Source: Tribonema minus (Eukaryota; Sar; Xanthophyceae; Tribonematales; Tribonemataceae). Taken from it: DNA of 64,000 nt. The position numbers and the translations under genes were made by a program. The notes under the pieces are model-generated. The model saw only the letters and a list, made by a program, of their open reading frames with translations, had not been told where the DNA came from and did not search any database. The stretch lies in contig JAFCMP010000379.1 of NCBI GenBank assembly GCA_017506865.1, positions 558,001 through 622,000 on the forward strand. Direction: 5' to 3'. Positions 974 through 64,000 of the stretch are shown piece by piece (the first letter of the stretch is position 1; each line of letters begins with the position of its first letter).

Positions 974-1051
974 GTATGGACTTGTATTTATAAAGGCCCA
1001 AGGGAGGCCGGGTTGCCTATGCAATCGAAAAGCTTGCGTCAACGCAGCAGC

Positions 1052-4000
1052 CTAGTCTGCGCTGTGCCCTAGGAGTTTGGATACCGGCGCCGCAACACAG
1101 CCCAGCATTCGCGCTCCACGTGTGTATGCCATGACGCGCTCCGCCAACTCCCGCGCCAGCGATATGCTCAGCTCAATGTGGATCTGACGCTTAGCTAACC
1201 CGGCCTTGCGTAACACATCTGCCTTCCCCCCCCCTGAGCACAGTGCTGAGTGCATTGCCAACTCCTTAACAAAAAGGCTTGTCTGCTTGCCCAGCCGTCC
1301 GTACGACTCCTGTACGAATGGCACAAAAGCCCAAGATGACGTCAAGGTGCCGGTGTGGTGCTTGACCTTCGCGTCCTCCCCCACCCCAGCAGCATAGCCG
1401 TCCGTGTTCGAGGCATTTGTTTTGCCTGTCAGGTACGAGCTCGCTGTGGGTGCGCGCACACTTGTGTCTAGCACTATTCCCTTGTTACGGTATGCACTGC
1501 TAAAGTGCAGACACCCTGGGTCAATGACTGTGTCCGCCCGATACCCCGGTACCTTGAAGACGCTAGCGTCCTCATTGCGGACAATAGAGACATGGTGCTG
1601 TCTCAAGATGCGCTGTAGGCACCGCTTTTGGGCAGTGTGTGTCGCGTTGTGCCCCCGTATGTGCTGGCTGGGGCAGCTGATCGCATGCGTGGAGGTGGGG
1701 CTCACGTCACTGCACCGCCATGGGCACACCTCGCCCTGTATGCCCCACCCGTCTATAAAGATCGCAACCATAATCATCGTGGCTGCTGCCATGCTGGACA
1801 TGGGCGCCGCACCCGGGCGGTCATTGGCAGCGGGTGGCACGCTCATCCACGCCATTGCCCCGGACGCACGCTGGCTGCGCAGCTGCGCCAGGACCCGCGC
1901 GCTAGCCTGTTGGCGGCGGCGGCTGGTGTCACGCAAGTCACCAATAAGTGTAGCCTGCGTCGGCTTGCCCACGGCACCAGCCGAGGCAGCCTCTAGGTCC
2001 TCCACCAGGCAGTCCTCGTATTGACGTCGAAGAACATTTGAAAGGCCGGCTTGTAGTCCGTGCGTGAAGTGACCGCGCCGGCGGCGGGGCACTACCTTTC
2101 TGCAGATCTCGTCAGCATAGGCCTCCCAGTCGTCGTCGTCGTCCTCCTGCCCGCCGCTGCAGCTGCTTTCTTCCGCGCTAGTTTGTGTTTTAGCGGGCGT
2201 GGAAGAGGCAGCCGCGGCAGCGGCTTGAGGGCCAGGTACGGTCGCCGCCGCAGCGGCCGCCTCGGCGCCAGGCACAATGCCGTGGGTGTGTGGGGCTGGC
2301 TCAGTGGTCCCCGTCTCCGTGACGGCAGTTGCGGCGTAGATCGCTTGCACCGCAGTGGGGAGCGTCGACGCTGCGGCCGTTGTATCCGCTGCCCACCGTA
2401 GCAACGATGCTGGGAGCTGCTCGGCCACAGCTGTGCGTGATTTTTCGCCGCCATCAGCTGTCAGCGCTCGCGTAGAGCGTCGCACGGCCTCGATGATTGG
2501 CGGCAGTCCCTGGTCCTCGCGTATTGCGCATGAGTGCTGCGCGAACCAGGTGACTGCGCCGTGTTCGTCAGTGCCGAGCCTCAGGGCCCCTGCTGCCACA
2601 GTGGCATGAATTATTGCAGGCCGCAGTGTTGTGCATGCCTGGGCCGTGTATGCGGCTGGTGCCAGTAGCCCCAAAAGCGGCATGCCCAGACCGCCTCGTC
2701 GCTCCGGCAACCGTGACGCCCGCAGTGGCACTGCGATGTCCGTGAGTTCTGGCGGGCCCAAGCGCGGCAATACCAGCACGCTGCCACTGCTGGCTACCTC
2801 ATTGTCACCAGCAGTGCAGGCGGCCAGCAGGTGTGACTTCATGACTGCCGCGGTAGCGCAGCCGTGCAGGTGCAGCATGCGTTCAAGCGTCCATGCACAG
2901 AACCCGTCAAATGCGTGCAGCCATGTCTCACTCAAAGCCGTGTCAACGACCCGAGCTAAGAAGCCCATGCGCTTTGTCAGTGACCTGCGCAGAATGGATT
3001 GTGCTGCCTGTAGGTGATGCCGCGCCATCCCAGCTAGCTGCCACGACAATCGCCATGTCCCTGCGTCAACAAGATGCTTGCTCATGGCAGCATGCACATA
3101 GGCTGGGTGCCCTACCGGTACCCCGACCGACGTAAAGCCCTGACTGGATTCTGGCATGGTGGCGTCCACAAACGGTATGTCAAGGGCGCGCAGGCGTGCT
3201 CTGGCCGCTTCATCAAACACTGTGCCGCGCATGGCAATGGCCAGCGACTTGTCTGGTCGAACGCGTAGGCCCCCTGCCGCAAGCCGACGGATCACCTCTG
3301 CCACCCCAGCGGCCGCTGCATCGTCGAAGTAGGCAGCTTGCAGCACGTTGAGGTCATCCAGGAAAGCGCAGTGCGGGGCTGGCGGTTCCGCTGTGCTGTG
3401 GCCGTAGGCCGGCATACTGCCGGGCGTCGCACTCACTCCATCAGGGTAGAAGAGTAGGAATGCCGCTGCCACTGCAAAGTACAGCGGCCCTAGAGGGTCC
3501 CCTTGCTGGCACCCTAGGTGGGAGCAGATAATGCGAGCTTCACCGTTCACCTCCACTCGCATCTCTGGGGCAGTGTCACCACAGTATACGGACTCAAAGT
3601 GCGGGAGCAGCTCCGGACAGAAGAGCATAAGTCCCCGCACAATGGCGGCGCGATCCACACTGTTAAATGCGTTCTCACAGTCCAGCTGGATTGTGGTGCC
3701 ATACAGCTCGTGCCACACGCGCGCGCGCGCTGCCACATGCTCGACGCCAGACCGGTATCCTACGCCAAACTGCGACATGGAGGCCAGCAGCCCCGATATT
3801 TTGCCCTTGACACCCCGTGCCGCTGTGGACCCGAGGAGTCTGCGCCAGACACTGGAGCAGGCGATCGGACGCCGCTTCTGTCCTATGCCTGAGAGGGCCG
3901 CGGCGCGGAGAAGCCGTTGCGATTGCTCCGGCAGCAGTTCGGGCTCAACAAGCAGCGTCGTGAACACCTTGGCCAGGTGATGGGCGAATGCCGGTTCCAT

Positions 4001-7000
4001 CACATCCGATTCTGAATCACCAGCTAGTCCTGGCGAGGCACTGCCCACGGGGCGGGTGGCTGCTTTCACTGGTGCACCAGGCCCAGCGGCCATCAAGAGG
4101 TGTTCATAGCGTAGGCCGTCCAGCCCTCCTGCCTTCCCCGCCCCTGCTGCGGACAAGGTCGACAGTATGTCTGTCGCCTCCACCTCGAGGCGCCGTCCGG
4201 CTGCGCTGGCAGCATCCTCAGGCCTATCGCTGCGATCATGCGCCTGACCCGATTCGAAGACGGGACTGCCGCTGCCAGCGGGCCCGGCGGTCGTTGCCAC
4301 CCCTGCGCCGTGCAAGCAGTGCCGCCGGGCGTCGCGTACCAGGCCGCGCACTTGCTCCATTGGCGTATCGACTACCCCGGGCCGGGTGCCAGTTTCAGGG
4401 TGCTTTGCTGCCAGCACCTGTGCCGTGACCTCGTCTGCTGGGGCGCATGCTTCACGCGCCTCTAGTCGTGCGGCAGCCAGGCCTACCCCCCGTCGCTTGC
4501 CTGAGAGGGCAGCGCATGCTGTTTGCTGCCTGGAGTCAGCCTCCGTCCAGTCGGCATCGAAGTTCGTTTGTGCCGACGCCGTAGCTGCGTTGTTTGGTTT
4601 GGGGGCCCGCAGCGCCGCTGCTGCTGACAGCGTCTTTCTCAGTAGCTCCGCAAAGTCGCCAGACAGCAACGCTGCCAGCCGGGCCGCAGGCGGCATACCG
4701 GTTCCCTCCGGTTGCCTACCAAAGGCCATTGCTGCTAGCAGGTGCAGCAGCCTGTAGCCGCGCTGCACTAGAGTCTGAGAAACCTGATGAGCAAACGCCC
4801 CGGCACCATGGTGGAGGCGCACCCGTGCCGCCTCACGTGCACTGTCTGTGGCGTCCGCCAGTAGTCGTGTGGCGTGCTCCACTAGCCGTGCCCACTGGGT
4901 GCACTGCAGCTGAGTGCGGAAGGGGTTGGCAGTCGTGGTGAACCGTAGCAGCAGTAGATCCGCCTCATTGGTCTGGTCAAGTGCGTGGACGACCGAGGGC
5001 GTCGAGAGGTCCCAAGCCAGGGATGCTCGTGACTGGGGCTTTGAGGGCCTGCCACTGGTGGTGGTGGTCGGGGGGGGCGGTGACGCGGCATCGTCCGGCG
5101 GGTCCAAGTCCATGTCCGCCCATCCCACGGCCGTCCCGTGGGGGGGGCTGCTGTCCTGCAGCCTTAGGCTGTTAGACTGAGTGCGGCTGCCGGCGCTGCC
5201 AGGCGGTGCTGCAGCAGCTGCCGTTCGGCGCCGGCGTTGCGCGCCGGTTGCCGTGGCCGCCGGGCGTTTCTTGCTGGACTTTGAGTTGGCAGCGCCACTA
5301 GCCGGCACCGCCGGTGGCTTTGGAGGTGTCGCTGCGGCAGCCCCCGCCGCCGCGGCCGCGCCGTCGCTACCCGCACCCCCGCCCTCGGACTGGCCCGGGG
5401 GTACTGCCGGGCGTGCGCGCGTGGGGGCGCTTCCATTCCGTCGACACGTGTGGCATGGCGAGGTCAGCGCGCATTGCCTCTGCCCCGCGCTGGCTGACAT
5501 ATGGACCAGACCGCAGGCACCTGTGCATGCACTCAGCTTCCTTACCGCCCGTAGGAAGTCTTCTGCCGTGCAACCATACATGGTGCTCATCTCCTGCACA
5601 CGCTTGGCATGGTGTGCCCCAGTGTTGCAGGTACTGCTGCCTGAAGGGGCACGGTCACCGGATGGGTCGTGATCAACCTGCTGCCGGATGCCCTTGGCGT
5701 ATGCTGCCGCCAGATTTTGCTGACAGTGTGATGTGCTCGCCTCAGGGTTCAGCATCGACCTCGTGCAGCTACCACCGTTGAAGTGGGCCACTACCGGTGC
5801 CATGCGGCTCGCAGCTGACAGTTTGCCTCGCTGTTTGCTGTCCTCTTTCTGACCAAGCTGCCAAAATGCCAGTGTGCATAAAGGACACCTCAGTGGCTCA
5901 GGCTGCTGTGGCAACTGCAGCGCAGTACGGGGCTGTGTCCGACTCGGAGCCGTGATGTGGGTGCTGTTAGCTTGAGTGGTCGCCGACGCTGTCATAGTGG
6001 TTGGCAAGGGCGGAGCTGCCGCAGGGGCGACAAGCAGTTCAAAGTGTCCCACATTTGTATATAGCCCAGGCGGCGTCCACAGCACATCCAGATGGCAGTC
6101 AGGCTGAGCTGGAGTTGCCGGTGCGAATACCGCTGGCAGCCCCATCAGTTGTGCCAGCACCAGCCCTGTTGATTTTTGCGTGCTGCCAGTGGCCTGAGGC
6201 TCGGCCTGCCACACCGTCACCGAGACCGCGTAGACCGCTGCAACAATGGCCCACACAGACAAACCGAGGGGCCGTCCCCACACGCCCTCTTCCTGTAGGC
6301 GTTGCAGCAGGAGCGTGTGCCCGCTGTCCGCGCTGTCCGTTTCATTTGTGCCGTACTCGATTGCGAGGCAGCGAGCGCGTGTCCCGTACGTGTCGAATTG
6401 TTCACGTGTACACGCAGGTTGGGCTGCTGCATGCGCGGTCAGTTGACGCATCGATGACATGCTGGCCCCTTGTTTGCCCGCCCCCTGCGTGACGTATGCC
6501 ACCATCCCGTCCAGCAGTGCCTCTCGCATGGCAATCACCAGTGCTGGGGCCGGCAGTCCGTGCTCAACTGCGACGCTGTCTATGCCGTGTAGAGCTGTAT
6601 GAATCAGGCAGTTGCCGTTGCCCACGTTGCTCACGGGGCGAAGCTCCCCACCACGTGCTAGCGTCGCTGTGTTTTCCCCAAGCGCCTGTTTGTGGAGTGC
6701 CTGCAGGCCCGTGTGCCAAGTGGAAAAACCATAGTTGGTGGCTTTTGCCAGCGCGTCTTGCTGCTCCTCCACGGTGACTGTATGGCACACGGTTGAGGGT
6801 ATCCGGGTCGCCACCGTCACGGTGGTGACCTTCGCCGGCCCGGATATTGGTGCTGAGGGGGCAGAGGCACCGCCCCTCGGCGGTGTGGTGGCTGGTGCCA
6901 GGGGTGCACGAGAATTGTCGCACTGGGCCTGTCGCTCCTGCGTCCGCCGTCTGTGTTTACCTCTGCGTCGACTGCGCTTTCCACTGGCAACCATAGCCGT

Positions 7001-7585
7001 GACAGGTGCTGTCTCGGTCATTGTTGCGTGGGTGCTGTTATCACCAGCCTGCGTTACGTCTGACTCACCACGTTTCCCGGCTGGCTGGCGAGGCGACCTG
7101 GCAACGACCGGTTCCCTAAGGGAGAGTTGGTCAAACACCGTTGCCAGGTCATTACCTTCTTCTCGGAGGGAGAGCAAGCTGAACGTGACCGTCAGGTCAT
7201 GCATCTGACTCACCAGCGGTGCGCAGGAAGTCCGGCCCAGCAGGGTCTGTGTTGCTGGCGCGTCGCTGGGCGCCGGCCGCATATGCAGTCGGCGTGACGT
7301 GCGGCAGGGTCCAAGCTTGGTACCCGTCGGCCAAGCGCAAAGCACCGTGACGCGTGCCCGATTGGGGGCAAGGGCCAGTGCACGTACCCTGCGATGTACT
7401 TCATTAGATGGAGCAGATAGCATCCCACCTGACAACACGCGAGCGCAGGAGCAATAAATAGAGCAACTATCAGACGACAGAATGCGTCTGGGAGACCAGC
7501 AGCAGCAGCAGCAGGCGTCTGGGAGACCAGCAGCAGCAGCAGCAGCAGCAGCCGGACTAGCCATGATCATCATCATCTCTGCCAC
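1052..7585 (-). CDS. Retrotransposon polyprotein: OTU protease, RT, zinc knuckle, restriction-like endonuclease
   Basis: An uninterrupted 2177-codon ORF. Seen in order: a CAG-encoded Ala/Cys-rich start that may not be translated (Met198 before a basic KRSRRRGKHRRR block is one alternative start); an OTU-type cysteine protease with nucleophile motif GNGNC (Cys326) and a downstream GHF histidine (His514); Cys/His clusters near residues 565 and 676-715 that look like zinc fingers; a reverse transcriptase at about 1100-1450 with GLDGLRYEHL, the LDCENAFNSVD catalytic motif, QQGDPLGPL and the FLDD box (Asp1410/1411); a CCHC knuckle (CX3CX8HX3C) near 1950; and a C-terminal restriction-like endonuclease pattern, RADTVID (Asp2018), LDTSV (Asp2040), then K/H-rich and FVPF motifs. 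No apurinic (APE-type) endonuclease was recognised. Family knowledge: OTU plus RLE recalls algal Dualen/RandI elements, which also carry APE. The product would reverse-transcribe its own RNA at a nicked target. Confidence 0.88.
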   Translation of the reverse strand: MAEMMMIMASPAAAAAAAAGLPDACCCCCWSPRRILSSDSCSIYCSCARVLSGGMLSAPSNEVHRRVRALALAPNRARVTVLCAWPTGTKLGPCRTSRRLHMRPAPSDAPATQTLLGRTSCAPLVSQMHDLTVTFSLLSLREEGNDLATVFDQLSLREPVVARSPRQPAGKRGESDVTQAGDNSTHATMTETAPVTAMVASGKRSRRRGKHRRRTQERQAQCDNSRAPLAPATTPPRGGASAPSAPISGPAKVTTVTVATRIPSTVCHTVTVEEQQDALAKATNYGFSTWHTGLQALHKQALGENTATLARGGELRPVSNVGNGNCLIHTALHGIDSVAVEHGLPAPALVIAMREALLDGMVAYVTQGAGKQGASMSSMRQLTAHAAAQPACTREQFDTYGTRARCLAIEYGTNETDSADSGHTLLLQRLQEEGVWGRPLGLSVWAIVAAVYAVSVTVWQAEPQATGSTQKSTGLVLAQLMGLPAVFAPATPAQPDCHLDVLWTPPGLYTNVGHFELLVAPAAAPPLPTTMTASATTQANSTHITAPSRTQPRTALQLPQQPEPLRCPLCTLAFWQLGQKEDSKQRGKLSAASRMAPVVAHFNGGSCTRSMLNPEASTSHCQQNLAAAYAKGIRQQVDHDPSGDRAPSGSSTCNTGAHHAKRVQEMSTMYGCTAEDFLRAVRKLSACTGACGLVHMSASAGQRQCALTSPCHTCRRNGSAPTRARPAVPPGQSEGGGAGSDGAAAAAGAAAATPPKPPAVPASGAANSKSSKKRPAATATGAQRRRRTAAAAAPPGSAGSRTQSNSLRLQDSSPPHGTAVGWADMDLDPPDDAASPPPPTTTTSGRPSKPQSRASLAWDLSTPSVVHALDQTNEADLLLLRFTTTANPFRTQLQCTQWARLVEHATRLLADATDSAREAARVRLHHGAGAFAHQVSQTLVQRGYRLLHLLAAMAFGRQPEGTGMPPAARLAALLSGDFAELLRKTLSAAAALRAPKPNNAATASAQTNFDADWTEADSRQQTACAALSGKRRGVGLAAARLEAREACAPADEVTAQVLAAKHPETGTRPGVVDTPMEQVRGLVRDARRHCLHGAGVATTAGPAGSGSPVFESGQAHDRSDRPEDAASAAGRRLEVEATDILSTLSAAGAGKAGGLDGLRYEHLLMAAGPGAPVKAATRPVGSASPGLAGDSESDVMEPAFAHHLAKVFTTLLVEPELLPEQSQRLLRAAALSGIGQKRRPIACSSVWRRLLGSTAARGVKGKISGLLASMSQFGVGYRSGVEHVAARARVWHELYGTTIQLDCENAFNSVDRAAIVRGLMLFCPELLPHFESVYCGDTAPEMRVEVNGEARIICSHLGCQQGDPLGPLYFAVAAAFLLFYPDGVSATPGSMPAYGHSTAEPPAPHCAFLDDLNVLQAAYFDDAAAAGVAEVIRRLAAGGLRVRPDKSLAIAMRGTVFDEAARARLRALDIPFVDATMPESSQGFTSVGVPVGHPAYVHAAMSKHLVDAGTWRLSWQLAGMARHHLQAAQSILRRSLTKRMGFLARVVDTALSETWLHAFDGFCAWTLERMLHLHGCATAAVMKSHLLAACTAGDNEVASSGSVLVLPRLGPPELTDIAVPLRASRLPERRGGLGMPLLGLLAPAAYTAQACTTLRPAIIHATVAAGALRLGTDEHGAVTWFAQHSCAIREDQGLPPIIEAVRRSTRALTADGGEKSRTAVAEQLPASLLRWAADTTAAASTLPTAVQAIYAATAVTETGTTEPAPHTHGIVPGAEAAAAAATVPGPQAAAAAASSTPAKTQTSAEESSCSGGQEDDDDDWEAYADEICRKVVPRRRRGHFTHGLQAGLSNVLRRQYEDCLVEDLEAASAGAVGKPTQATLIGDLRDTSRRRQQASARVLAQLRSQRASGAMAWMSVPPAANDRPGAAPMSSMAAATMIMVAIFIDGWGIQGEVCPWRCSDVSPTSTHAISCPSQHIRGHNATHTAQKRCLQRILRQHHVSIVRNEDASVFKVPGYRADTVIDPGCLHFSSAYRNKGIVLDTSVRAPTASSYLTGKTNASNTDGYAAGVGEDAKVKHHTGTLTSSWAFVPFVQESYGRLGKQTSLFVKELAMHSALCSGGGKADVLRKAGLAKRQIHIELSISLARELAERVMAYTRGARMLGCVAAPVSKLLGHSAD
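7499..7552. repeat. CAG trinucleotide runs
   Basis: Two CAG runs, separated by a repeated GCGTCTGGGAGACCAG block, sit at the very start of the LINE B ORF and encode poly-Ala and poly-Cys in different frames. They make the true start codon of that ORF uncertain. A similar CAG run lies at about 8173-8197. Confidence 0.8.
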
Positions 7586-9013
7586 TGAGGCTCAGGATTG
7601 CAGTCAGGACACGCAGTGGCACTGCTGTCAGCCTTCCACAAGTTGATGATTGCACACCACAGCAGGGTGCGTATGAGAGTCAGCTGATTGCCCACCTCAT
7701 GGCTTTGCATCGCGGTGCAGCACAATCATTTTGACAGTCCATCAAACTTCTAGCGAAATCTGTGCAGCGGGATCAACACGCACTCCACCATGGAGCAACG
7801 GTGCCACTGCCGTGGCGGGCGCAACTGCTGCTTGTTGCTGGTGACTGAGCATCCGCGCCATTCTGTATGTCTCACAGACGTTATTAATTCGTGACATGGG
7901 GGTTCAACACCATCTCACTCAGTAAGACTTGAGCAAAAACAAAGGAATGCAGACGGCATTTGCGTCCGGGTGTTGTCGACACCACGCATCCCAGTACCTG
8001 TATGACAGCATTCGGCATGTGCATCCAAGTTTTGTCGATACAACGCATTATATATTGCTATCTGTACGACAGTACTGATGCAACGCATCTGGGTACCTGC
8101 ATGACACTGTCGTAACGGACTTTGAACGACTGACAGCATAAGCCTGTGACATGCTGCCATCGCAGTGGCAGGAGCAGCAGCAGCAGCAGCAGCAGCAGGG
8201 GGTGTCATACCATGCAATGCCACATGGCGTCTTTCCATTCACATGTGTTATGCACCTACATCAACGGCAACAACATTCCTGTTTGCTCGAACACAACGCA
8301 AGCTTTGGTGATAACTTTTTATTTGGCTGAATCTGGTGGATCCCATGTTTAACATGCACACAACTGTTGGGCAGAGGTGGACGCATATGCTGCTGCGTAC
8401 AGAAAATGGCATGCAGAGCGCAAGTGCATTGACACCACTATATAATGCCCCAATGATCATGATAACTTTTTTCACCTCCTTGGAGGCTGCGAAGGCAGTA
8501 AGTATGCACATAAAATCATCGCGTACTACGAGTACTCCAGCAGAACGGTGGAAGTGAGGAAAGGCAAATCTTTCGAACTGTAGTGGGCGATGTGGTGTGC
8601 ATCACAACCAAACACAACAGCCGCGGTGCAGCCTCCCATGATGATATGGATAGGGGGCCCAAGCCCTAGGCCCAAGTTCAAGCCCTAGTAGGAGAGTCAC
8701 CTCCACAAGCCTCAACTCTAAATGTACTATCGCTCTCAGTCCTGTCACAGCAGGCACTGCTATTGTGGCCCCCACCACCCCAATCAACCAGTGTCGGCCA
8801 TTCTGCTGCTCTGCTGTTCGCCTGCGACCTCCAACCATGTCAATGAGTAGCCGCACATGCTTGTGGAAGAAAGCATTGCCAATTGCCATTGTGTGGCACA
8901 TGTTGCAGCACATGGTGCACAACCCAAAATTTATGATGCCAAAACACGTCCACACTCTGAACCTGCCATGCTGTGCTCTCACTCCGCAAACCTGAATCTG
9001 TGGATGCAAAGAT
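7586..9013. other. Putative LINE B leader and unassigned DNA with a dispersed short repeat
   Basis: No gene recognised. Between about 7960 and 8110 a motif of about 40-60 bp (TTGTCGA, then ACGCATC, then GTACCTG and ACGACA) occurs three times in diverged form. The same motif occurs once in each inverted-repeat arm (about 11985-12010 and 36825-36855), so it is a dispersed repeat rather than part of one gene. The part up to about 8720 may be the 5' leader of LINE B. Confidence 0.4.
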
Positions 9014-11490: not shown

Positions 11491-12336
11491 CGTCAAATCA
11501 GGCTGATCCGAGCTGCGGGCAGTGGCAGCAGCGACGGGGTTCGCAGCAGTGCCGAATCAGATGTGCAGACAAGTTGCATTGCTTGAGAATTCAAGAGAAT
11601 ATTTGTGACGGGCAGAAAATTGGGCAAGGAGCAACAACTGTGTCAATGCTTAACCTGTGCTCCGGGGCAGCGGCAGAGCGCACAGCAGCCCCAACCCTGA
11701 TTAAGGCTTCTGTGCGCCCAGGTGTTGTCGGTGCTGACATTTGTGAAACAGACGGCAGCAGCTCTTTTATATGCGCCATGTGTCTCACCAGCGCAGCTTG
11801 GGTAGCTTAGCTCATGGGGGCGCTTTCAGCTGTGTCTATTGCACATGGCAGCGCTCAGCCCATTGTCGCATTGAGCTGTGCACAGTAGCGTGTTTGCAGG
11901 TTCATTGTTGGGCCTGTACGCTTTGGACACAACGCCGCTTGGATAGCATCAGCAGTAGTGTCTGGGGGCGAATGTCGTACAGGTACCGAGATGCGTTGTA
12001 TTGACAACACCTGTGCGCACAAACTCACCCGCCACCGGCCCACCCTATTGTTTTGTTAGCGCATGCACAATTTTTCAACGCGTGTGACACAAGCGCTGGG
12101 GCGGGAGACAAATTGCGCAGTGCCATTATGTCGGGGGCGCATAGCAGGAGATGCTGCGCAGTACCATGAAGTTGGGGCGCATACATTAACAATTGTTCTA
12201 CTTGAAGCAGTAGCTGCATGGCGCTCTCAGTCGTGGCACTGGCAGATACATGTTATCTCCATAGCTGCAGTTGATCAAGTGCATGTGGTGCAGTGCGCAT
12301 GGCTCAGCAAGCTTTGCAGACCACGCTTGAGTGTAC

Positions 12337-13027
12337 TTTTATTGATTTCGCTTCGCAAGGGGCGCGAAAAGCCCTCTCTGTGGATGTGCACTCAATGCAA
12401 CATTCCTTCTCCGAAGAGAGACTCAAACGCCAACAGGCTTCCCCCTCTTCACACTACCACCAACACCCCACAACCAAACCCTACTTAGGGTTGCCCAGCC
12501 GTGAGGCACACTTGTCCCGTCTTGCAAAAGATTTGTGCAGGCCTGGGTCGCCTTTGACAGCGCCCAGAACTGAGGACCATGCTGACACGTCTGAATCACG
12601 CCTATAGGCAAAATGAACACTGGGCACCAGGCACCGGTGCTCAAGGTATCAATGCTGTTGCTACGAAGAGTCCAACCCAACCCCAACACCCCCCACTCAA
12701 ACCCTGATTGGTCCCCACTATCATGCTGCACCAAAGTGCCTAAGCTACTGCCTCTACACGACCAGACCCACTTTGAGGCCTCGCGTGTTTCTGCAAAAAT
12801 GGTCCTGCCGTGAACAGCTTTGTGCAGGCCTGGGCTGCTGATAGCAGCGCCCAGAACTGAGGACAATGGTCATGGATCACCAAGTGCCAGGCACTGGTGC
12901 TGCAAAGGCTGATGCTGTCACTAAAGCAAGCATATCCACTAAAACCCGCCCTTCTATTCGCTAGTGTTACCCCCCCGGGTGTCCCCGGCCGCACACTGGA
13001 ACCCCTGCTGCGAACTCCTTCCTCCTG

Positions 13028-13065
<38 letters not shown>

Positions 13066-14089: not shown

Positions 14090-14100
14090 GTCTATGTACT
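14090..14100. other. Empty LINE A target site in left arm
   Basis: GTCTATGTACT is the reverse complement of AGTACATAGAC, the 11 bp sequence found on both sides of LINE A in the right arm (30026-30036 and 35541-35551). Here it is single and uninterrupted, giving the pre-insertion state. Confidence 0.92.
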
Positions 14101-15930: not shown

Positions 15931-15998
15931 TGCATGACAACAATGAGTTGGTGTGTGAGTGCCAATTCGTGTTCACATGCCCTAGAGCCCACCCCTGC

Positions 15999-55600: not shown

Positions 55601-57028
55601 GGCGTGCCGTTCGCCAAGCCGGCAGACAAGCAGCGGGCGCTCGCCATGAGCCCGGAGGAGGTGGCTGCCACCAAGGCCAAGGCTAACCAGAAGCGGCCGA
55701 AGCGGTGGCAGCGGCAGAAGCGCGAGTGGCCGCACGGCGCGCGCGTGCGTGCGAAGGACCTTGCGGCCCTGCGCAAGTTCGTCGAGAGGGACAAGTGCAT
55801 GCACCACCCCAACATGCAGCTCACACTCATGAGGTACGGAGTGAATACGTATTGGTTGCTCGCACACACGTTCCCTGAAGTATAGACATCTCCTTGAGAA
55901 GTACTCCCACATATCCATGCTTCAGGTATAGATATATGCGGGCCCGAACCCGATGCATGCTCCAGGTATAAATATATGCACATGTGCGAGTTTAAACCCG
56001 GTGCACAGCTCACGCGCACGAGGTACGGACAGGACTACATGTACGGACAGGACTACATGCACGTCCTCTGAGGTTGTACAACGTGCGGAAGGGGAACTGA
56101 TACATGTCCTGTGAGGTTATTCCTCATCATCAATTCTCACTGAGGGCGCGAAACAGCCGAGACCGTTGAAGTCAAGCTTGCTCTTTGGTGTGGTCGTCTT
56201 CTTGTGACAAAGTATTTAAAGTTTTATAGTATTGAAGTTTGAGTTCAAGTTAAATGGTATTCATTACTGCGGCTGGCCGCCAAGTGCTTGCTGTCATCTG
56301 TGCCGCCTGCGCACAGCAGTCCACACACCCTGTTGCTGCTCACCGCCATCGGCGCACTGCCAGCTGTACGTGCTGCAGCTGGCTGCCTCCAGCGCCCCGC
56401 TGCCTGCTGCCATCTGCGCCCACCGCTGCTGCTCTCACGGCCACTCGCACGGGCCGTTGCGCGTTGCCACCGGCCCGGCGTCCGCCTCACGATCATCTGC
56501 CACCGCCGCTCGCTGCCACAGAGCGCTGCTCGCTGCCGCCCGCACCTGCCTGCTGCCACCTGTGCCTGCCGCTGCTGACTGCCTCGCGCGCCCTCCTCTG
56601 CTGACTGCTGTTCACTGCGATCGTCTGACCGTCTGCCTCGCCATCTACCATGTGCGCGTGTCGGTGCTCACTGCCACCCTGCACGTGCGCGCTGCCGAGT
56701 GCGCCCCACCGCCTTGCCACACACTCCGCACAAAACTGCAGCTCCCTTGCCTTCGCTTCGCATATTTTGACACTGTGCCCAGCTGCTCACTGCCACACGC
56801 ACACTCTCCGCTGCTCGCTGTCACCGCGTGCCCGCCGCCAGGGAGGTGCAGCTGATGCCTGAGGGCGCGCCCGAGGGGATATCCCTTTATATCTGGCAGG
56901 AATTTGTCCTCGCCATTCCGGGCAAGGAGGAGGCGGTCCTGTGGCAGCACTACACCCAGGACGCGAGGTGGCTGTGCAACTGGCTTGGCGCGGGGCACCA
57001 GGAGCGCATCGTGAAGCTAGAGAGTTGA
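49841..57028 (+). CDS. Unidentified host gene, exons A-E (5' end unresolved)
   Basis: Phase-compatible exons: A 49841-50058, B 50501-50621, C 51883-52104, D 53570-53885 (or its duplicate D' 55518-55833), E 56842-57028 with a TGA stop. Joined, they give about 354 residues plus a missing N-terminus. Splice sites are good (CTTACAG, CCTCAG, ATGCAG, TTCCAG acceptors; GTAGGA, GTACGT, GTAAAC, GTACGG donors). Visible features: an acidic region in C (ESVEDEHGWLVLQNTSGEIQ), a strongly basic block in D (KRPKRWQRQKREWPHGARVR), and a hydrophobic/aromatic end in E (GISLYIWQEFVLAIPGKEEA, then WLCNWLGAGHQERIVKL). I do not recognise the family. The first exon may lie in 48797-49020, where a frame containing LLEVEPRPKLQRGRAVYRAG is open, but no start codon or join could be fixed. 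Confidence 0.6.
50676..51365. mobile_element. Non-autonomous hAT-like element in intron B-C
   Basis: The ends are inverted copies of CAGAGATGCCCCGT. The flanking octamers are CTGACAGT (50668-50675) and CGGACAGT (51366-51373), 7 of 8 matching, as expected for an aged 8 bp hAT target duplication. The 690 bp interior is full of ACCGGT / ACTGGTACC motifs clustered towards both ends (50690-50780 and 51165-51310), typical of subterminal transposase-binding repeats. No transposase ORF is present. It lies wholly inside an intron of the unidentified host gene. Confidence 0.82.
52567..52611. repeat. Interstitial telomeric array (CCCTAA)n
   Basis: About seven units of CCCTAA in tandem with one CCCTAAA variant. 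The array ends within a few bases of the start of the 1.95 kb tandem duplication (52615). It lies in the intron between exons C and D. The repeat is human-type TTAGGG, not the Chlamydomonas TTTTAGGG type. Confidence 0.93.
52615..52896 (-). other. Minus-strand open frame of unknown nature (unit 1)
   Basis: Opposite the host gene, the frame reads AVAFVITSDECKTWTGRGHL and on through VADTKKAAVHFSAVGDKV to KELGEKAVLLEG. The composition looks coding, and the frame survives in both duplicate units with few changes. No ATG start in a good context or partner exon was found and no family is recognised. It may be an exon captured from another gene. Confidence 0.3.
52615..54562. repeat. Tandem duplication, unit 1 (1,948 bp)
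   Basis: Starts GGGGAGGCAAGGAGCACGG, ends CACAGAGCGCTG. It is repeated directly at 54563-56528 with only scattered substitutions. It contains exon D of the plus-strand gene and a minus-strand open frame. Confidence 0.95.
54563..54862 (-). other. Minus-strand open frame of unknown nature (unit 2)
   Basis: Copy of the frame at 52615-52896 with changes including Asp to Asn in TSNEC and Ala to Thr in SLCSTAF. It has the same lack of a clear start. Confidence 0.3.
54563..56528. repeat. Tandem duplication, unit 2 (1,966 bp)
   Basis: Second direct copy. The 18 bp length difference is a local duplication of GTACGGACAGGACTACAT at about 56023-56058. Exon D' (55518-55833) is intact with the same splice sites and a synonymous change in the codon before FVERDK. 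Confidence 0.95.
56529..56841. other. Low-complexity intron before the last exon
   Basis: CTGC/CCGC-rich degenerate sequence ending in the CCGCCAG acceptor of exon E. No independent feature. Confidence 0.6.
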
Positions 57029-57352: not shown

Positions 57353-57817
57353 TTGAAGCCAGTGAGGGTTGAACCACTTTTGACCACTTTTGACAAAGGC
57401 CAACAATATTTTGACTTCTCGTGGCTTGACTCCGAGTCTGATGATCTCTTGAAGTTTCTGCGATTGAAGTTCTGCGATGTTGGTGGCGCTTCTGGACAAG
57501 TTCACACAGCTCTTGACAGACCATGCTTTGAAACCACAAAACACCTGAATACCGTGAGTTGCTGCAGATTCCCAAAAATTGACATGATCCGTGTCGTCCC
57601 TGCCACATCCCCTGAACATGGTCAGTTTCTGTGCATGGGTTTAATTAGAGATTACTGTGCATACCTGCACTGTTCCATCTACCACAGGCGCGAGACTCGG
57701 CAGAAGACCAAGGCTGCGGAGATTGATTGGCGTTCCATTTTTTACATAGATTTGAAGCCGACTAGAATATGCGGTCGTGTGTATGCATGTGTGTGGGGCA
57801 CTGATTCTAATTTGTGA
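57353..57817 (+). other. Open frame of unknown nature ending at a GTACAT junction
   Basis: A 154-codon plus-strand frame without recognised domains stops in GTGAATAAAA, which is followed directly by GTACATCC (57828 onward). An A-rich end next to GTACA is what the retroelement 3' ends of this window look like, so this may be the 3' part of another element. A minus-strand frame overlaps it (57329-57619). Which strand codes, if any, is unclear. Confidence 0.3.
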
Positions 57818-57835
57818 ATAAAAGTACATCCTATG

Positions 57836-58098: not shown

Positions 58099-58109
58099 TT
58101 TATGTACTT
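58099..58109. repeat. Target-site duplication, 3' side of LINE A copy 2
   Basis: TTTATGTACTT, identical to 63636-63646. Confidence 0.93.
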
Positions 58110-61100
58110 TTTATTAATTCTCGCTCAGGGCGCGAAAAAGCCCAGATGATTGGCATCTAGCTGTAAGGAATCTACATGTCGTATGACAGTCTGAAAGTGT
58201 CGCAACGACAACCACTCAAACGCCGCCGCCGCCAAATGGCATCTCGGGGTCCTCCCCTACGTCCTCCTCCATGTGCCCCCCCCCCCTGGATTCTGCCATG
58301 TGTGTCATGACACGGCCAGAGTACGCCATGTGGAGCGCTGCCGACAGTGCCGAGCGTAAGCGCGCCAGGGCGATGCCCTTGAGAGCTTTAGGGCGCGCTC
58401 CTCCGGGCACTGACATCCTGCTGGCATACTCCGTCGCCACAGCCTCCAGCAGCTTCCGCCCCTGCTCCCCGATGCTGCCAAATGACCCTATTGCCAATGT
58501 GGCAAGTTTGTAGCAATTCTGATCATAATGACCAGAATAGTGGGTAGTCTTGGCGGCCTCTTGGTCGCGGCAGCATCGCTCGGGGTCTGCTGCAGTCTTC
58601 GCCGCCCGCGACGCCACCTGTGCCTCGAAGCAGGTAACGTCCACCATGAGCGGTAGGTGGCGTGTCGGGTCGTCGTAGCCGGTCACCGGGAAGGCGTCGG
58701 CAGGCAGCACGATGTCCATCCTGCGACTCCCCGGCGGCCCGGCGGACCCCAGAAACGGCGTGTAGTCCTCGTCCACCAGTCCCGTTTTGAGGTATTGCCG
58801 CAGGAGGCGCTGCGTGGCCCTCTTGACGCTATTGTGGACAATGGTGTCGTGCGCCTTGACGCGTGGCGCTTGACACAGCCGTGCATGCAGGGTGCCGCCC
58901 GGCGACTTCCCGCACAGCTTGCAGCCTGCCGTCTGCTCCTCTACTCCGATGGCGCGTTTGACGGCCAGCTGCCAGGATAGGCCATCGAACGAAGCCGTTG
59001 TGGAGTACATGGGCTCGTTGAGGAATGCCATGCCGATCGAGTGCATGTGGCGCTGCGACCGGAATCGAGCAAGTGCTTGCGTGCGTTGCGTGCCCTGCGG
59101 CAGCTGTTGCAGGTCCGCCTCCACCTTATCTGCAAGCTCGGTAGCGACGGCATCTGCAAGCGCACTCTGATTGGGGCGCTTCAGGCTACACTGCAACTGC
59201 AGAGCACTGGCGTCAAGTACGCAAGCAGCATCCGCACCAGTGCCACCACCTGCTGTCGGCCGCAGCGGCGGCTGCTGCGTAGGTGGTTGCTGCTGCAGTG
59301 GCGTTAGCGCTGGTGGCAGTATATGTTCCAGCTTGTCACCTGTTGCTGCACGTAGAGATGTGGCAGCTGTGGCGATCGTCCGCATGAGGGGCAGGCGCGC
59401 CACCTCTGCCGCTGCTGCGCCTTGTAGCATTGCTGGTGTGGAACGCGCAGCGCCTGCATTGACGGCTGCCGCTGCTGCGTGCGCTGGTGCTGCAGCTGTG
59501 CCGCCTGCCGTTGCTGCTGCTGCCAGTGGTGTTGCTGCTGCCGCAGGTGTTGGTGCAGCACCTGCCGCATTGGCCGCTGCCACCGCCATTGCCGCTGTCG
59601 CAGCCGGCACGGTTGCGGCGCCGCCTGCCGACGCTGCTCCTGTTGCAGGTGCTGCAGCAGCCCTTAGGCTAGTAGGGCCTGTAGCAGCTGTATTGCCTAT
59701 GCCCGCAGCCGCTGCTGTTGATGCTGCAGTTAGTGATGCCGCCGAGGCCACTTGAGGTGCAACATGTGCTGCCGCTGCTGCAGCAGCCTCTGATGCTGGA
59801 GCAGCTGCTGCTGCCGCCGCTGCTGCTGCCGCCGGAGTAGTTGCGCCGTGCGCCGCCGCTGCTGCTGCTGCCGCTGGTGCCGCCTGTGCTGCCGCCGCGG
59901 CCCCTGATCCAGCGGCAGCTGCGTCGTGTGTTGCCGGAATGGCTGCGCCATAAGCGCGGCCAGCCGCTGATGCAGTTGCCGCTGCCGGAGCGGTCGCGCC
60001 TCCACTGGCAACCGCCGCTGCCGCTGTAACAGTTGCCGCTGCTGATGCTGCTGGTGCTGGTGCTGCTGCCGCTGCTGCCGGTGCCGCTTGTGTTGCCGCA
60101 TCCTCAGCAGCGTTGTCTGCAGCCGCTTGAGGAGCCGCCTGCTGCAGCACCCCCGCCCATCCAGAGAGTGCTGGTTGCAGCGCTTGCAACGTGCCCGCCA
60201 CATACGCAGCATCAGCGATGTCGCAGGCGCTGGTAATGCCAAGGCCGCCATGCCGTGTTGGGAGTCGCGCTTGCTGTAAGGCTGGGCCGTGCGCTGCCAG
60301 ATGGAAGTGGGCCCCACTTTGCTCAAACTGGCGCCAGGTCTGGCCTGGTGGCTGCAGGCCCATTGAGTGCTCAAGCACCCACTGCGTGACCCGATCCCAC
60401 TCCTTGGCGGCTGGCGCTGTCTGCGTAGTGGGAATGGTGCGCAGGCAGTACGTCATGCGAGGCACCACGCAGTAGCGCAGTAACCTGAACATAGCCCTCG
60501 GAGATGTCAGGCGCGCGCATCGCTCTGCAAATCGAGCCCCTGCCCCGCCTGCACCCGCTTCCCTGCGCAGCCATGCGTCCACAAAGCTGCTGTGGCCCAC
60601 CGGCACCCCCAGCAACACAGCTCCACGGTTCTGATTTTCATCCGTATCCCCCACTAGCTGAACGCCCAGCTGCTGCAGCAGTTGCCGCTCGTGGTCTGTC
60701 ACCACATGCCCCCTGCCAGGCAGCGCGCGTGACTTGGTGAGGTTTAGCTCCAGCCCCACCTCCGCAAAGTGTTGTTTGAGCTGCGCCACCGCCTGTATGT
60801 CATCCTGAGTCAGCGTGCAAGCGCCTGTTCGGACGTTGGCATCGTCCATGTAGGCGCCCATCCGCCTCCGCGCGCGCTGCGCAGCCGCCGCCTCATTGAA
60901 CCGTTTCAAGCACTGAGCAATGGCGCCGCAGAAGAGCATCGGTGCCGCGGGGTCCCCCTGCTTAAACCCGCGCTGAGACATGATGATGCGCGTGGAGCCG
61001 TCAACGTGCTGGAACAGCAGGCGTGGCCGAGTGCGAACGTATGTGCCGATGAAGTAGTCGAGGAAGTCCGGCAGCTGTGCTGCTACCCATTCCGCTGCCG

Positions 61101-63635
61101 CCAGGACGAACACCATGTTGAAGGCATTCTTGAGGTCCAGCATGAACTGCCAGTGACCGAGCTCATACGCGAGTTTGCCGGCCATGGCCGCTTTCTCCGC
61201 TCCTGCTGAGACGGCTACCCCATACTGCCCGTCTGGCTCAAGGAGCTCCGCCAGGAAGTCTTTGCGGTCTGCCACGTACACCGAAGTGCATAGTCGCTGC
61301 AGCACCTCGCCGCAAACGATGGGCCGCTGCTTAGCTGTACCATCTTCCTGTTGTTCTGCAAGTGGCGTCAGGCGCCCCGCGCCATGCAACTGCCAGAAGG
61401 CATCCGGCAGCCGCGCAGCCTCCCGCATAACGGTCTGAAGCCACCGTGTGAGGACAGCAGCAAACTCATGCCGTCCCCAGCTTGTGCGTAGCGCATCCTG
61501 CAGGTGGCTGTAGCGCAGCCCCGATGGGCCTGCTCCACTGTAAGGGCTTGCTCGTTGGATGAGCTTGGCAACCGTCTCTGGCTCAATTCCCTCCCCCTGT
61601 AACAGGCTGAGTTCTGCTGGCATGTCGGCTGCTTTCGCCACAAGCTGATCAACCATGCCGGATAGCTCATGGAGTTGTTCCCCTGGCGCAGCGGGGGGGT
61701 GTTTGGACTGCATGGCGGCAAAGCAGTCATCATCAGGTATCGCCACCGTTTTGGGCTGAAGGAAACGCGCTGCCTGCTGTAGCCCCCCCCGTGTGCCCAT
61801 GCACTGTAGGACGTAGGCGTTGATCGCTGCCTCCGTTTGCTGGCGCGCGCGCCAGCGCCGGTGCGCACGCGCGTGTGCGAGGAGCGCTGGCACCAACCGG
61901 TCAAGCTCACCGCGTGCCAACATTCTGATTCTGTCGGAGCGAGTGATGCCAGGTGCGCCATCGGTGGAGGTGATGAGTGATGGCATGAGGTGGTGTAGAA
62001 TCGTGGATCTTTGCAGTCGCTGCACCCGCCCTGCAGAATCTGGCTCCCGCGCCGCATTGACGAACATCGTCATTGTGTGTGCCAACAGATGTGTTGCTGC
62101 GTTCTCCAGTGCAGCTCCCACATAGCGACGATTGCGTGGTCTAGCAAGGCTTCTAGTTGTCGCGAACTGCAGCTTGCACAGCTCATCGAGGCTGATGCTG
62201 TCAAGCACTGCTGCGACTGCGGGGGTTGAGATGGTCCACGTGAAAAGCCCACCTGCCCCACCTGCTGCGCCTGCAGGGCCTGGCGCTGCCGCTGCTGTCG
62301 CCGCACCTGCCGCTCTGGGACCCCCTCCGCCGCCGCCGCGGCCGCCACGACCACAGCCTCGTCCGCCGCTGTCGCTGCTGCGACCGCTGCCACGGCCACC
62401 GCGGCCGTTTTGAGTTCGCGCGCCACTGCCGCTGTTGCTAGCACCGCCGCTGCGGCTGCTGGCATCACTGCTGCGGCCGTTGCCAGCGCCGCTGTCCTTA
62501 GTACCGGCTGCACTGCCGCCGCCGGCACCGCTGCTGCTGCCGCCTCCGGTTCTGCTGCCGCTAGTCGCTCTGCTACTGCTGATGTCTGCATCATTGCTGC
62601 CGCTGCGAACGCGTCCTCCATTGCCACGTCCGCGCCCTCCACTGCGACCCCGACCCCCTCGTGTAGCACTGCTGCCCCCGCGTTCCGGCCTCTTTGAGCT
62701 GCCGGAGGAGCTGCTGCCACCAGCCTGAGCAGCAGGTGCCTGCTGCGCGTGCGCTGGTCCCTTTGCGTAGGGGTTGCCGATGGGTGTGCACGCCGGTTGC
62801 TGCTGTGGCAGCGACGTGGTAGCTGTTGCCGTCGATGCATCAGGTGCTAGCGGTGCTGCTGATGCTGTTGTTGACAATGTTGCCGCCACTGCAGCGGGTG
62901 AAGTGATAGGCCTGCATTTGCGGCAGTGCTTGCCCGCGCTGGCATCGCTGCTGTCCACTCTGAATGTCTTGTTGGCATGAAACAGGTTTTTGCACAAGGC
63001 ACACTCGGTGTAGATGGTTTGCAAGTGCGACGTGCTGAGGTCGGAGCGCTCCAGGAACGTTGTTGCTGTCCCACTGTGGTGTTTGCGCTGGTGCTTCGCC
63101 GCGATGTGGGCGTTTAACCTCTGCTGTAACGAGAGCAGCGACATGCCCTTCTTCACCACGAGGTCGCATAAGTTGCACTTGTACTCCGGGTCCGCACTGC
63201 CTCCACCTCCAGCTTCGTCGTCTAGCATCAGACGTTGCTGTTCCAGACTGTTATGACCTGTTCTAGAGCGCTTGACTGCACTTTGCCCGCCCGTGTGCTC
63301 CCCTTCGCCTGTTTGATCGGAAATTGACCAACCGTCATTCTGTACCCTCTTGCGTTTGTGCGCTGCGCGTCCGTCTCCAGTTGCTCTGCTGCTGCCACTC
63401 GTGCCATCGTCCTGTTGACAAGCGCCATTGCCATCTGCAGCACTGGTGCTAATATCCTGCGCTTGTGCGCACGCTAGATCGGATTCCTTGCATTTCTGCG
63501 CTGATTCAGAGTTGGCAATACGGGCCTCCCGCCGCCGCCATGATATTCTTTTCATGATCTCTGCTACGCCATGGTGCTACATGCTACAGCTACATACCTA
63601 TCCGCATCTCGTGGAGGCCTAGTTTGTACTTCTTA
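58110..63635 (-). mobile_element. LINE A copy 2: full-length RLE-type non-LTR retrotransposon
   Basis: 5,526 bp in reverse orientation, flanked by the 11 bp direct repeat TTTATGTACTT (58099-58109 and 63636-63646; AAGTACATAAA in the element's sense). The 3' end is ATTAATAAAA as in copy 1. The 5' end has about 29 bases upstream of the shared TGCGGATAGGTATG where copy 1 has only six. It inserted right behind the 3' tail of another element (63647-63668). Confidence 0.95.
58216..63555 (-). CDS. Retrotransposon ORF: zinc fingers, RT, zinc knuckle, restriction-like endonuclease (copy 2)
   Basis: 1779 codons, intact, and the same domain order as 30094-35433. Only three amino-acid differences from copy 1 were found: Pro to Arg after LEQQ near residue 110, Ser to Ala in AAVNSGAARS, and Gln to Arg in LPLMQTIATA; none touches a catalytic motif. 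YMDD, CCHC and both RLE aspartates are present. Two nearly identical intact copies imply recent transposition and a possibly active family. The Ala-rich linker is the same length in both copies, arguing against free slippage. Confidence 0.93.
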   Translation of the reverse strand: MKRISWRRREARIANSESAQKCKESDLACAQAQDISTSAADGNGACQQDDGTSGSSRATGDGRAAHKRKRVQNDGWSISDQTGEGEHTGGQSAVKRSRTGHNSLEQQRLMLDDEAGGGGSADPEYKCNLCDLVVKKGMSLLSLQQRLNAHIAAKHQRKHHSGTATTFLERSDLSTSHLQTIYTECALCKNLFHANKTFRVDSSDASAGKHCRKCRPITSPAAVAATLSTTASAAPLAPDASTATATTSLPQQQPACTPIGNPYAKGPAHAQQAPAAQAGGSSSSGSSKRPERGGSSATRGGRGRSGGRGRGNGGRVRSGSNDADISSSRATSGSRTGGGSSSGAGGGSAAGTKDSGAGNGRSSDASSRSGGASNSGSGARTQNGRGGRGSGRSSDSGGRGCGRGGRGGGGGGPRAAGAATAAAAPGPAGAAGGAGGLFTWTISTPAVAAVLDSISLDELCKLQFATTRSLARPRNRRYVGAALENAATHLLAHTMTMFVNAAREPDSAGRVQRLQRSTILHHLMPSLITSTDGAPGITRSDRIRMLARGELDRLVPALLAHARAHRRWRARQQTEAAINAYVLQCMGTRGGLQQAARFLQPKTVAIPDDDCFAAMQSKHPPAAPGEQLHELSGMVDQLVAKAADMPAELSLLQGEGIEPETVAKLIQRASPYSGAGPSGLRYSHLQDALRTSWGRHEFAAVLTRWLQTVMREAARLPDAFWQLHGAGRLTPLAEQQEDGTAKQRPIVCGEVLQRLCTSVYVADRKDFLAELLEPDGQYGVAVSAGAEKAAMAGKLAYELGHWQFMLDLKNAFNMVFVLAAAEWVAAQLPDFLDYFIGTYVRTRPRLLFQHVDGSTRIIMSQRGFKQGDPAAPMLFCGAIAQCLKRFNEAAAAQRARRRMGAYMDDANVRTGACTLTQDDIQAVAQLKQHFAEVGLELNLTKSRALPGRGHVVTDHERQLLQQLGVQLVGDTDENQNRGAVLLGVPVGHSSFVDAWLRREAGAGGAGARFAERCARLTSPRAMFRLLRYCVVPRMTYCLRTIPTTQTAPAAKEWDRVTQWVLEHSMGLQPPGQTWRQFEQSGAHFHLAAHGPALQQARLPTRHGGLGITSACDIADAAYVAGTLQALQPALSGWAGVLQQAAPQAAADNAAEDAATQAAPAAAAAAPAPAASAAATVTAAAAVASGGATAPAAATASAAGRAYGAAIPATHDAAAAGSGAAAAAQAAPAAAAAAAAHGATTPAAAAAAAAAAAPASEAAAAAAAHVAPQVASAASLTAASTAAAAGIGNTAATGPTSLRAAAAPATGAASAGGAATVPAATAAMAVAAANAAGAAPTPAAAATPLAAAATAGGTAAAPAHAAAAAVNAGAARSTPAMLQGAAAAEVARLPLMRTIATAATSLRAATGDKLEHILPPALTPLQQQPPTQQPPLRPTAGGGTGADAACVLDASALQLQCSLKRPNQSALADAVATELADKVEADLQQLPQGTQRTQALARFRSQRHMHSIGMAFLNEPMYSTTASFDGLSWQLAVKRAIGVEEQTAGCKLCGKSPGGTLHARLCQAPRVKAHDTIVHNSVKRATQRLLRQYLKTGLVDEDYTPFLGSAGPPGSRRMDIVLPADAFPVTGYDDPTRHLPLMVDVTCFEAQVASRAAKTAADPERCCRDQEAAKTTHYSGHYDQNCYKLATLAIGSFGSIGEQGRKLLEAVATEYASRMSVPGGARPKALKGIALARLRSALSAALHMAYSGRVMTHMAESRGGGHMEEDVGEDPEMPFGGGGV

Positions 63636-63646
63636 TTTATGTACTT
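63636..63646. repeat. Target-site duplication, 5' side of LINE A copy 2
   Basis: TTTATGTACTT; it directly borders the 3' tail of the neighbouring element at 63647. Confidence 0.93.
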
Positions 63647-64000
63647 GTGGACTTGCATTTGTAAAGGTGTTTCATTTACGCCTAAGATACAGGCTTAGCC
63701 TTCCGCGCTGCTGTCCTTGTAGCCAGCGCCGTCACCAGAACTAGCACCACATTGCTGCCACTGCCGCCAACATTTCTTGTGTCGCTGGCATTGTCGCTGA
63801 CATTGTCGAAAGGTTCACCACAAGGGGGAGGGTACGCCCCATGTGTTTTTGAGGGCAGGAGACACAATGAGGTTCTCACAGAGCACCTCATATTCGGCTT
63901 CAGTTTTAGCAATGTGAGCGTCATGTACCAGCCGCTGCCATGGAGGCAGCGTCAGATTGTCGCGCCAGGAAGCCTCGGCAATCTGCGCCTTCTCTTGCGG
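63647..64000 (-). mobile_element. 3' end of another retroelement with LINE B-type tail (cut by window edge)
   Basis: The last bases on the minus strand (CTTTACAAATGCAAGTCCAC followed by AAGTACATAAA) match the LINE B tail near 974-1000 at most positions. Upstream lies a 3' UTR of about 145 bp and the end of an ORF (63815-64000). The rest is outside the window. Confidence 0.55.
63815..64000 (-). CDS. C-terminal 61 codons of an ORF running off the window
   Basis: Open from the window edge to a TGA stop. It reads EASWRDNLTLPPWQRLVHDA, continues through an acidic helix and ends GVPSPLW. Position upstream of a LINE B-type tail suggests a retroelement ORF, but the sequence does not match the C-terminus of the LINE B ORF at 1052-7585 and I do not recognise the family. 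A spliced host exon is the alternative. Confidence 0.4.
   Translation of the reverse strand, partial: PQEKAQIAEASWRDNLTLPPWQRLVHDAHIAKTEAEYEVLCENLIVSPALKNTWGVPSPLW

Follow-up and report, generated by a model that had tools for sequence, protein, structure and literature searches.

GTACA as the insertion target of LINE A and a short partner element, and probably of LINE B, in a 64-kb stretch of Tribonema minus

Long interspersed nuclear elements (LINEs) with an R2-type endonuclease are known mainly for hitting one gene. Elements of the Utopia/NeSL type, described also in stramenopiles (oomycetes), carry a restriction-like endonuclease; weaker specificity, for short U2-like sequences, is reported for some reptile Utopia families and many non-specific members for HERO (PMC4640811). 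The BLAG elements of Blattella are described as non-site-specific, R2-like and randomly located (PMC7650587), and abundant CRE-clade LINEs together with short dependent families have been described in the brown alga Ectocarpus (PMC12477816). EhLINE1 of Entamoeba is described as a dispersed LINE with a CCHC motif and a restriction-like endonuclease that prefers 5'-GTATT-3' and nicks between A-T and T-T (PMC3118788). Here, a 64-kb stretch of Tribonema minus DNA (the window, from which all the junction evidence comes) has been analysed. It contains two LINEs, named LINE A and LINE B, and a short non-autonomous element (the 797 element), and the sequence GTACA is found next to their 3' ends.

We consider it likely that LINE A, an R2-group-like element, integrates at GTACA by target-primed reverse transcription, that the 797 element rides on the LINE A machinery and that LINE B probably uses the same word. 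The endonuclease would thus probably choose a short scattered word rather than a particular gene. Short-motif choice by a restriction-like endonuclease has a precedent in EhLINE1, and the closest described system is the EhLINE1/EhSINE1 pair, whose members reportedly use common target sites, according to a 2004 paper. As far as it is described, this pair resembles LINE A and the 797 element in being dispersed, in the use of a five-base word and in the combination of a LINE with a short partner at common sites. The Tribonema elements differ in the word itself (GTACA), in the AATAAAA end of the tail and in duplications of 10-11 or 0-2 bp, and the nicking that was measured in Entamoeba is presumed here. 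R2 is like LINE A in having a reverse transcriptase and a C-terminal endonuclease, but it inserts at one site in the multicopy 28S ribosomal RNA gene and not at a short dispersed word. Utopia and NeSL elements are also unlike LINE A in their described targets, which are U2 small nuclear RNA genes, the spliced leader, transfer RNA (tRNA) genes or other repeats. BLAG shares with LINE A the presence of R2-type proteins at many places and differs in being called randomly located, whereas the Ectocarpus CRE-clade LINEs are likened to LINE A and the 797 element by their description as LINEs with short dependents, in which no target word is given. A published description of GTACA as a LINE target was not found in a literature search that lacked most subscription journals.

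Before-and-after insertion sites are provided by an imperfect palindrome (arms 8933-20474 and 23650-39892, core identity 96-98%). Gaps between the core arms are 11 nt long at most, save for two insertions: the right arm carries LINE A copy 1 and the left arm the 797 element. Since each insertion is present in one arm only, the other arm holds the matching empty site, and both pairs were fixed by arm comparison, independently of any prior sight of GTACA. The features involved are the following:
30026..30036, + strand: 5' target duplication of LINE A copy 1, AGTACATAGAC
30037..30042, + strand: 6 extra nt, AGTACT, between the 5' duplication and the LINE A copy 1 body
30043..35540, + strand: LINE A copy 1 body, 5498 bp
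30073-35433, + strand: LINE A copy 1 reading frame, 1786 amino acids from stop to stop, with reverse transcriptase and R2-type endonuclease
35541..35551, + strand: 3' target duplication of LINE A copy 1, AGTACATAGAC
14090..14100, - strand: left-arm empty site of LINE A copy 1, with AGTACATAGAC once
12337..13131, - strand: short non-autonomous element, 795 bp (797 with GT), last ~38 nt LINE A-like
12332..12336, - strand: 3'-junction GTACA of the short element
36495..36499, + strand: GTACA in the right-arm empty site of the short element
1..559, - strand: 5' part of a second short-element copy, with its 3' end beyond the window

The filled site of LINE A copy 1 reads ..CACTGTAGTACATAGAC, then AGTACT and the body ending in ..AATAAAA, then AGTACATAGACCTGCAG, and the left-arm empty site reads ..CACTGTAGTACATAGACCTGCAG. 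When the flanks of copy 1 are joined with a single 11-bp AGTACATAGAC they are identical to the empty site in 60/60 bases; the duplication is 10 or 11 bp long, because its first A may be part of the A-run of the tail. In the sense direction of the 797 element, ..CTCTTAAGATGT is followed by the element (TAGAGAG...AATCAATAAAA) and by GTACACTCAAGC, and the right-arm empty site reads ..CTCTTAAGATGTACACTCAAGC. The 797 element therefore lies between ..GATGT and GTACAC, with a duplication of 0-2 bp (at most GT), and the second copy (559-1) shares this 5' end and likewise has GT at the end of its 5' flank. GTACA is present at the exact insertion point in both empty sites, so it is part of the target; in the cases of copy 1 and the 797 element this is proven. 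The initial annotation had proposed a short dispersed motif as the target and had named tails that simply contain GTACA as what would speak against it; at these two sites GTACA pre-exists the insertion and a contribution of the element itself is ruled out.

LINE A copy 2 differs from copy 1 at 11 positions over 5498 bp:
58109..63606, - strand: LINE A copy 2 body, reading frame 58216-63576
58099..58108, - strand: 3' target duplication of LINE A copy 2, AGTACATAAA
63636..63645, - strand: 5' target duplication of LINE A copy 2, AGTACATAAA, also the GTACAT after a LINE B tail relic
63607..63635, - strand: 29 extra nt between the 5' duplication and the LINE A copy 2 body
40661..40845, - strand: decayed LINE A 3' end, tail GAGCGAGAATAAAA, then GTACAAGTG at 40660

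Both ends of copy 2 carry AAGTACATAAA, a duplication of 10-11 bp whose match score was reached in 13 of 2000 random comparisons, and the evidence for a GTACA junction is strong. The decayed fragment, whose last part is shorter (GAGCGAGAATAAAA), is homologous to LINE A as supported by alignment. Its end at 40661 was placed by eye, since the scan alignment continued into the flank to 40655 and left GTACA unflagged; the support for GTACA at this junction is good, and here as at copy 2 the junction given in the initial annotation was recovered. The extra 5' nucleotides of the two full copies differ in length, yet both contain GTAC (AGTACT in copy 1 and ..AAGTACAAACT.. in copy 2).

The last ~38 nt of the 797 element are common to LINE A, with an alignment score of 40 against at most 28 in 40 shuffles. 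The shared end comprises GGGCTTTT(T)CGCGCCC, a GCGA stretch and AATAAAA, and within the final 1 kb of LINE A no convincing similarity to the 797 element was found upstream of it. A shared 3' end, an unrelated 5' part and the same target word are the features of a LINE/short-partner pair in the stringent sense, and judged from the sequence the 797 element is probably mobilised by LINE A. As to a tRNA- or 5S-derived short interspersed element, which would have an RNA polymerase III gene part, neither a tRNA nor an Rfam match was found in the window at standard thresholds, at which a diverged part could be missed.

A tail scan of the window was carried out without using GTACA, with the highest of six shuffled maxima as threshold. 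The LINE A tail query gave matches above 16 at 35540, 58109, 12337, 40655 (the fragment ending at 40661), 22710 and 54158/56125. These seven rows correspond to six events, 54158/56125 being one tandem-duplicated event, and GTACA directly follows four of them, three flagged by the scan and the hand-read one at 40661. When the LINE B tail served as query, the sites 975, 39927 and 63646 exceeded the shuffled maximum of 12, all three being followed by GTACAT, and the tail query of relic 39927 recovered the 975 site. The two A-type tails not followed by GTACA, which were missing from the list of the initial annotation, and an additional site are the following:
22710..22755, - strand: A-type tail relic from the tail scan, followed by GCACCTC, without GTACA
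56125..56165, - strand: A-type tail-like relic, tandem-duplicated at 54158, lacking a definable end and any GTACA within 30 nt
57817..57828, + strand: AATAAAA followed by GTACA at 57824, without tail homology or duplication

The two A-type exceptions may mean that the preference is not absolute, that the relics are decayed or that their tails come from a different subfamily; nothing was gained when the A-type tail relics were read as coding sequence. The two strands of the 64 kb together contain GTACA 132 times, or once per 970 nt per strand. The probability that any one pentamer is common to four random junctions is P = 9.8e-9. For four of six junctions and any pentamer, the word being chosen post hoc, it is ~1e-7 (15 x 8.1e-12 x 1024), and for three of six, with the hand-read end dropped, ~1e-4 (20 x 4.8e-9 x 1024). 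Among the eight AATAAAA words of the window, five are followed, after any further A, by GTACA, and the remaining three include a pair of twins, located one in each palindrome arm. Four of the five are the A-type junctions and the fifth is 57824. The latter, listed as a junction (57828) in the initial annotation, does show AATAAAA and then GTACAT, but neither tail homology nor a duplication was found when looked for; it is left unassigned and not counted as a supported junction. Insertion at GTACA is thus real and beyond chance in the case of LINE A and its short partner; LINE B is a likely further case, while 57824 has no support.

LINE B and the sequences with a B-type tail are located as follows:
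975..7591, - strand: LINE B, reading frame 1052-7591, 2179 amino acids from stop to stop, 5' end uncertain with a candidate near 7390
39927..40457, - strand: ~530-bp insertion with a LINE B tail, right outer arm, then aGTACATGGTG
63646..63675, - strand: LINE B tail relic

The LINE B tail ends in ..ATAAATACAAGTCCATA and is followed by cGTACATTG (974-973). Relic 39927 lies in the outer, older portion of the palindrome; there the right arm has the tail directly followed by GTACATGGTG, and the left arm, which lacks the insertion, has GCACATGGTG at the homologous place. GTACA is therefore host DNA at this site, and the evidence for this junction is good. GTACA after LINE B and its relics, given as probable in the initial annotation, is consequently well supported at 39927, while for the junction of LINE B itself it is probable but not proven. 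In the other arm the 39927 site contains a 12-bp tandem, GCACATGTTGCA GCACATGGTGCA. The ~530-bp insertion (39927-40457) may be a short partner of LINE B; a tblastn comparison with 32 LINE-related proteins gave no match, in a search that also missed the decayed LINE A. The relic at 63647, also given as probable in the initial annotation, is a B-type tail followed by GTACAT, but LINE A copy 2 is inserted at the GTACA directly after it (63607-63675), so both share one target and are not independent. GTACA is kept after insertion and the site can therefore be hit again, so that at 63645 one target has possibly been re-used by two families. The independent GTACA sites are then six at most, namely LINE A copy 1, copy 2 with 63646, the 797 element, the decayed fragment, LINE B and 39927.

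A search of the proteins revealed a reverse transcriptase in LINE A (copy 2 protein, PF00078, E-value 2.1e-10), with a match in all eight members of an alignment that includes LINE A (A1). In the same alignment the C-terminal CCHC residues C1552, C1555, H1564 and C1568 are invariant in 8/8 rows. The C-terminus, tested on the copy 2 protein, has the features of a PD-(D/E)xK-type endonuclease fold and models as an R2-type endonuclease, and the best structural and profile matches of LINE A are the R2 reverse transcriptase and C-terminal endonuclease. The reverse transcriptase match of LINE B reaches 28.4 bits against a Pfam cut-off of 29.6. In the LINE B group (alignment A2), 13 of 14 members, LINE B included, show this match at an E-value of 0.01, and CCHC, D2020, D2042 and K2075 are invariant in 14/14 rows. 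A profile alignment of the two LINE proteins spans 1048 columns at 25% identity (E-value 7e-105), and their C-terminal parts alone, with the endonuclease of LINE A and a putative one in LINE B, give a profile match at 4e-29. Going by these profile alignments LINE A and LINE B are distant cousins, and since the proteins are related a shared target can be inherited. The initial annotation had spoken of two element types with different proteins, which is to be qualified in this sense.

The protein relatives of both LINEs were taken from the best 8000 candidates scored per search. A tree of 28 rows (P0001, P0007, P0008 and P0030 left out) separates the LINE A and LINE B groups only. The LINE B profile matched, among solved structures, only entries resembling low complexity; C-terminal profiles on their own gave nothing useful, and single sequences nothing at an E-value of 0.01. 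No match was obtained in NCBIfam, searches of viral contigs yielded relatives of neither LINE and a search of genome contigs with LINE A yielded none. Residues 430-1130 of LINE A are 98-99% identical to the T. minus proteins P0001, P0007 and P0008 over 38-79% of this part, which places the window in this xanthophyte or an alga very closely related to it. The three proteins are gene models that join LINE A pieces to PF03567 (which we take to be a sulfotransferase), a Lon protease and a Chromo-domain name, and they are probably annotation chimeras that can serve to mark further copies. Near its N-terminus LINE B has a stretch, NVGNGNCLIH, with counterparts in most longer relatives; it has no Pfam match and is presumably OTU-protease-like.

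For the mechanism proposed here, the empty sites, the duplications, the shared tail and the predicted endonuclease fold of LINE A are at hand, while the nick position, the specificity, the mobilisation in trans and the role of LINE B are inferred. LINE A, with its reverse transcriptase, C-terminal CCHC motif and restriction-like endonuclease, would insert at a dispersed word of a few bases through target-primed reverse transcription. On the model of R2 and EhLINE1, the endonuclease would nick the strand reading 5'-TGTAC, leaving the 3' end directly beside (A)GTACA, and the RNA tail (GGGC..GCCC, the GCGA stretch and AATAAAA) would be copied from the nick. The other strand would be cut 10-11 bp downstream for LINE A, giving rise to the duplication, and 0-2 bp downstream in the case of the 797 element. 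This short element would use the LINE A machinery by means of the shared last ~38 nt and so land at GTACA, and LINE B, a distant cousin with a different tail, would probably use the same word.

Several observations weigh against this interpretation. The sites are few, at most six being independent and two having exact empty sites, and two A-type tail events (22710 and 54158/56125) lack GTACA. With the tail query of relic 39927 a tandem-duplicated weak match was obtained at 53013/54961 (13 against shuffled maxima of 10-11), which is followed by GTGGC. In the tail scan the similarity between the 797 element and LINE A is at the limit of noise, the LINE A query scoring 17 against shuffled maxima of 9-16 and the 797 tail query 17 against 10-17. 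The five tails that were folded are no more stable than shuffled sequence (z from -0.67 to 0.77), which lends no support to an unusually stable tail hairpin, and the GGGC-GCCC pairing is found in the best fold of the LINE A tail only and not in those of the 797 element or the decayed copy. The C-terminal K of the LINE A group is not invariant when P0010 is included. Finally, the LINE B junction can be placed in two ways, since a 13/14 near-duplication, TGAAGTACA[T/C]CGCA, at 7403 and 967 would move it 7 nt further on and set the 5' end near 7390; a match as good was reached in 26 of 299 null comparisons, so that it is not significant and was rejected as proof of the junction.

The last point bears on the possibility that GTACA is used by LINE A and its partner only, the GTACAT of LINE B being part of its tail and the real target lying a few bases on. 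This would explain why GTACAT, with an identical sixth base, follows the B-type tail in 3/3 cases, and it would agree with the junction 7 nt past the tail-defined end that the near-duplication sets. However, GCACATGGTG is present in the uninserted arm at relic 39927, so that GTACATGG is host DNA there, and the near-duplication is within chance and itself contains AGTACA; we regard this alternative as rather unlikely. It has also been considered that an enzyme of little selectivity leaves the choice of GTACA to annealing, the end of a read-through RNA (..AAAAGUACA) pairing with a nicked strand that ends in TGTAC. A read-through RNA from a copy located at GTACA would indeed end in ..AAAA-GUACA, GTAC is self-complementary and only about five bases are common between the sites. 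But the bases after GTACA differ among the copies, so the old flank is not carried over, GTACA is lacking at two A-type tails and a nick exactly beside GTACA would still be required, all of which makes annealing improbable.

Most described elements with this type of endonuclease target multicopy genes or repeats (PMC4640811), and the target could accordingly be a larger repeat or a gene family that contains GTACA, as in R2, NeSL and Utopia. In the window, however, the sites have in common GTACA plus one or two bases at most, the empty sites are found in two separate stretches of the palindrome, and the surroundings differ at each site, which is not the pattern of elements specific for a multicopy gene. 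Neither an Rfam family (gathering threshold) nor a tRNA was found in the window, so that no known multicopy RNA gene explains the target; a known RNA gene was rejected as the target on this ground, the short dispersed motif of the initial annotation stands and a larger repeat is very improbable. The most sceptical explanation is that the junctions were picked after GTACA had been seen, given that the word is not rare and that, although all the strings named in the initial annotation are present in the sequence, one of its eight junctions lacks support and its list leaves out two tails that are without GTACA. Yet GTACA persists at junctions fixed independently, in two empty sites, one duplication and the tail scan, with P from 1e-4 to 1e-8 according to what is counted, and chance is extremely improbable. 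Integration of LINE A and its short partner at GTACA, probably shared by LINE B, is therefore the preferred explanation.

The system bears on the question of how site choice shifts in evolution between single genes and dispersed words, and the palindrome arms make clean before-and-after insertion sites available for it. R2 proteins are described as being in development for targeted DNA insertion (PMC12222951, PMC11331408), and a relative that reads about five bases, with a short template that has just ~38 nt in common with its helper, would show the share of the endonuclease in the specificity of R2. A broader and more tentative proposal, somewhat short of an even chance in our view, is that GTACA is shared in one alga by two deeply diverged LINE lineages, both with R2-type endonucleases and each equipped with a separate tail type and short partner, and that the word stays intact and the sites are re-used. 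If so, specificity for a dispersed short word would be ancient and heritable in endonucleases of this type, and more than a decay from gene targeting.

The palindrome (8933-39892) has a spacer of 3.2 kb, in which a 9-bp tandem array of CACGCTGAG-like units was observed at 20720-20935, and outside its core a weaker homology is found, with 72% identity between 8527-8632 and 40539-40659. It is either a real gene-converted palindrome or the result of two haplotypes assembled head to head. Both arms contain a kinase-like reading frame (15277-15972 and 28149-28844), for which Pfam gave a match that falls short of its cut-off (E-value 0.0048, first frame only). They also contain a piece (11037-11282 and 37549-37794) that is 42% identical to residues 908-993 of P0008, the T. 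minus protein named Chromo domain-containing, and that possibly derives from another retroelement. Elsewhere in the window, a tandem duplication of 1.95 kb, 98% identical, is located at 52614-56528.

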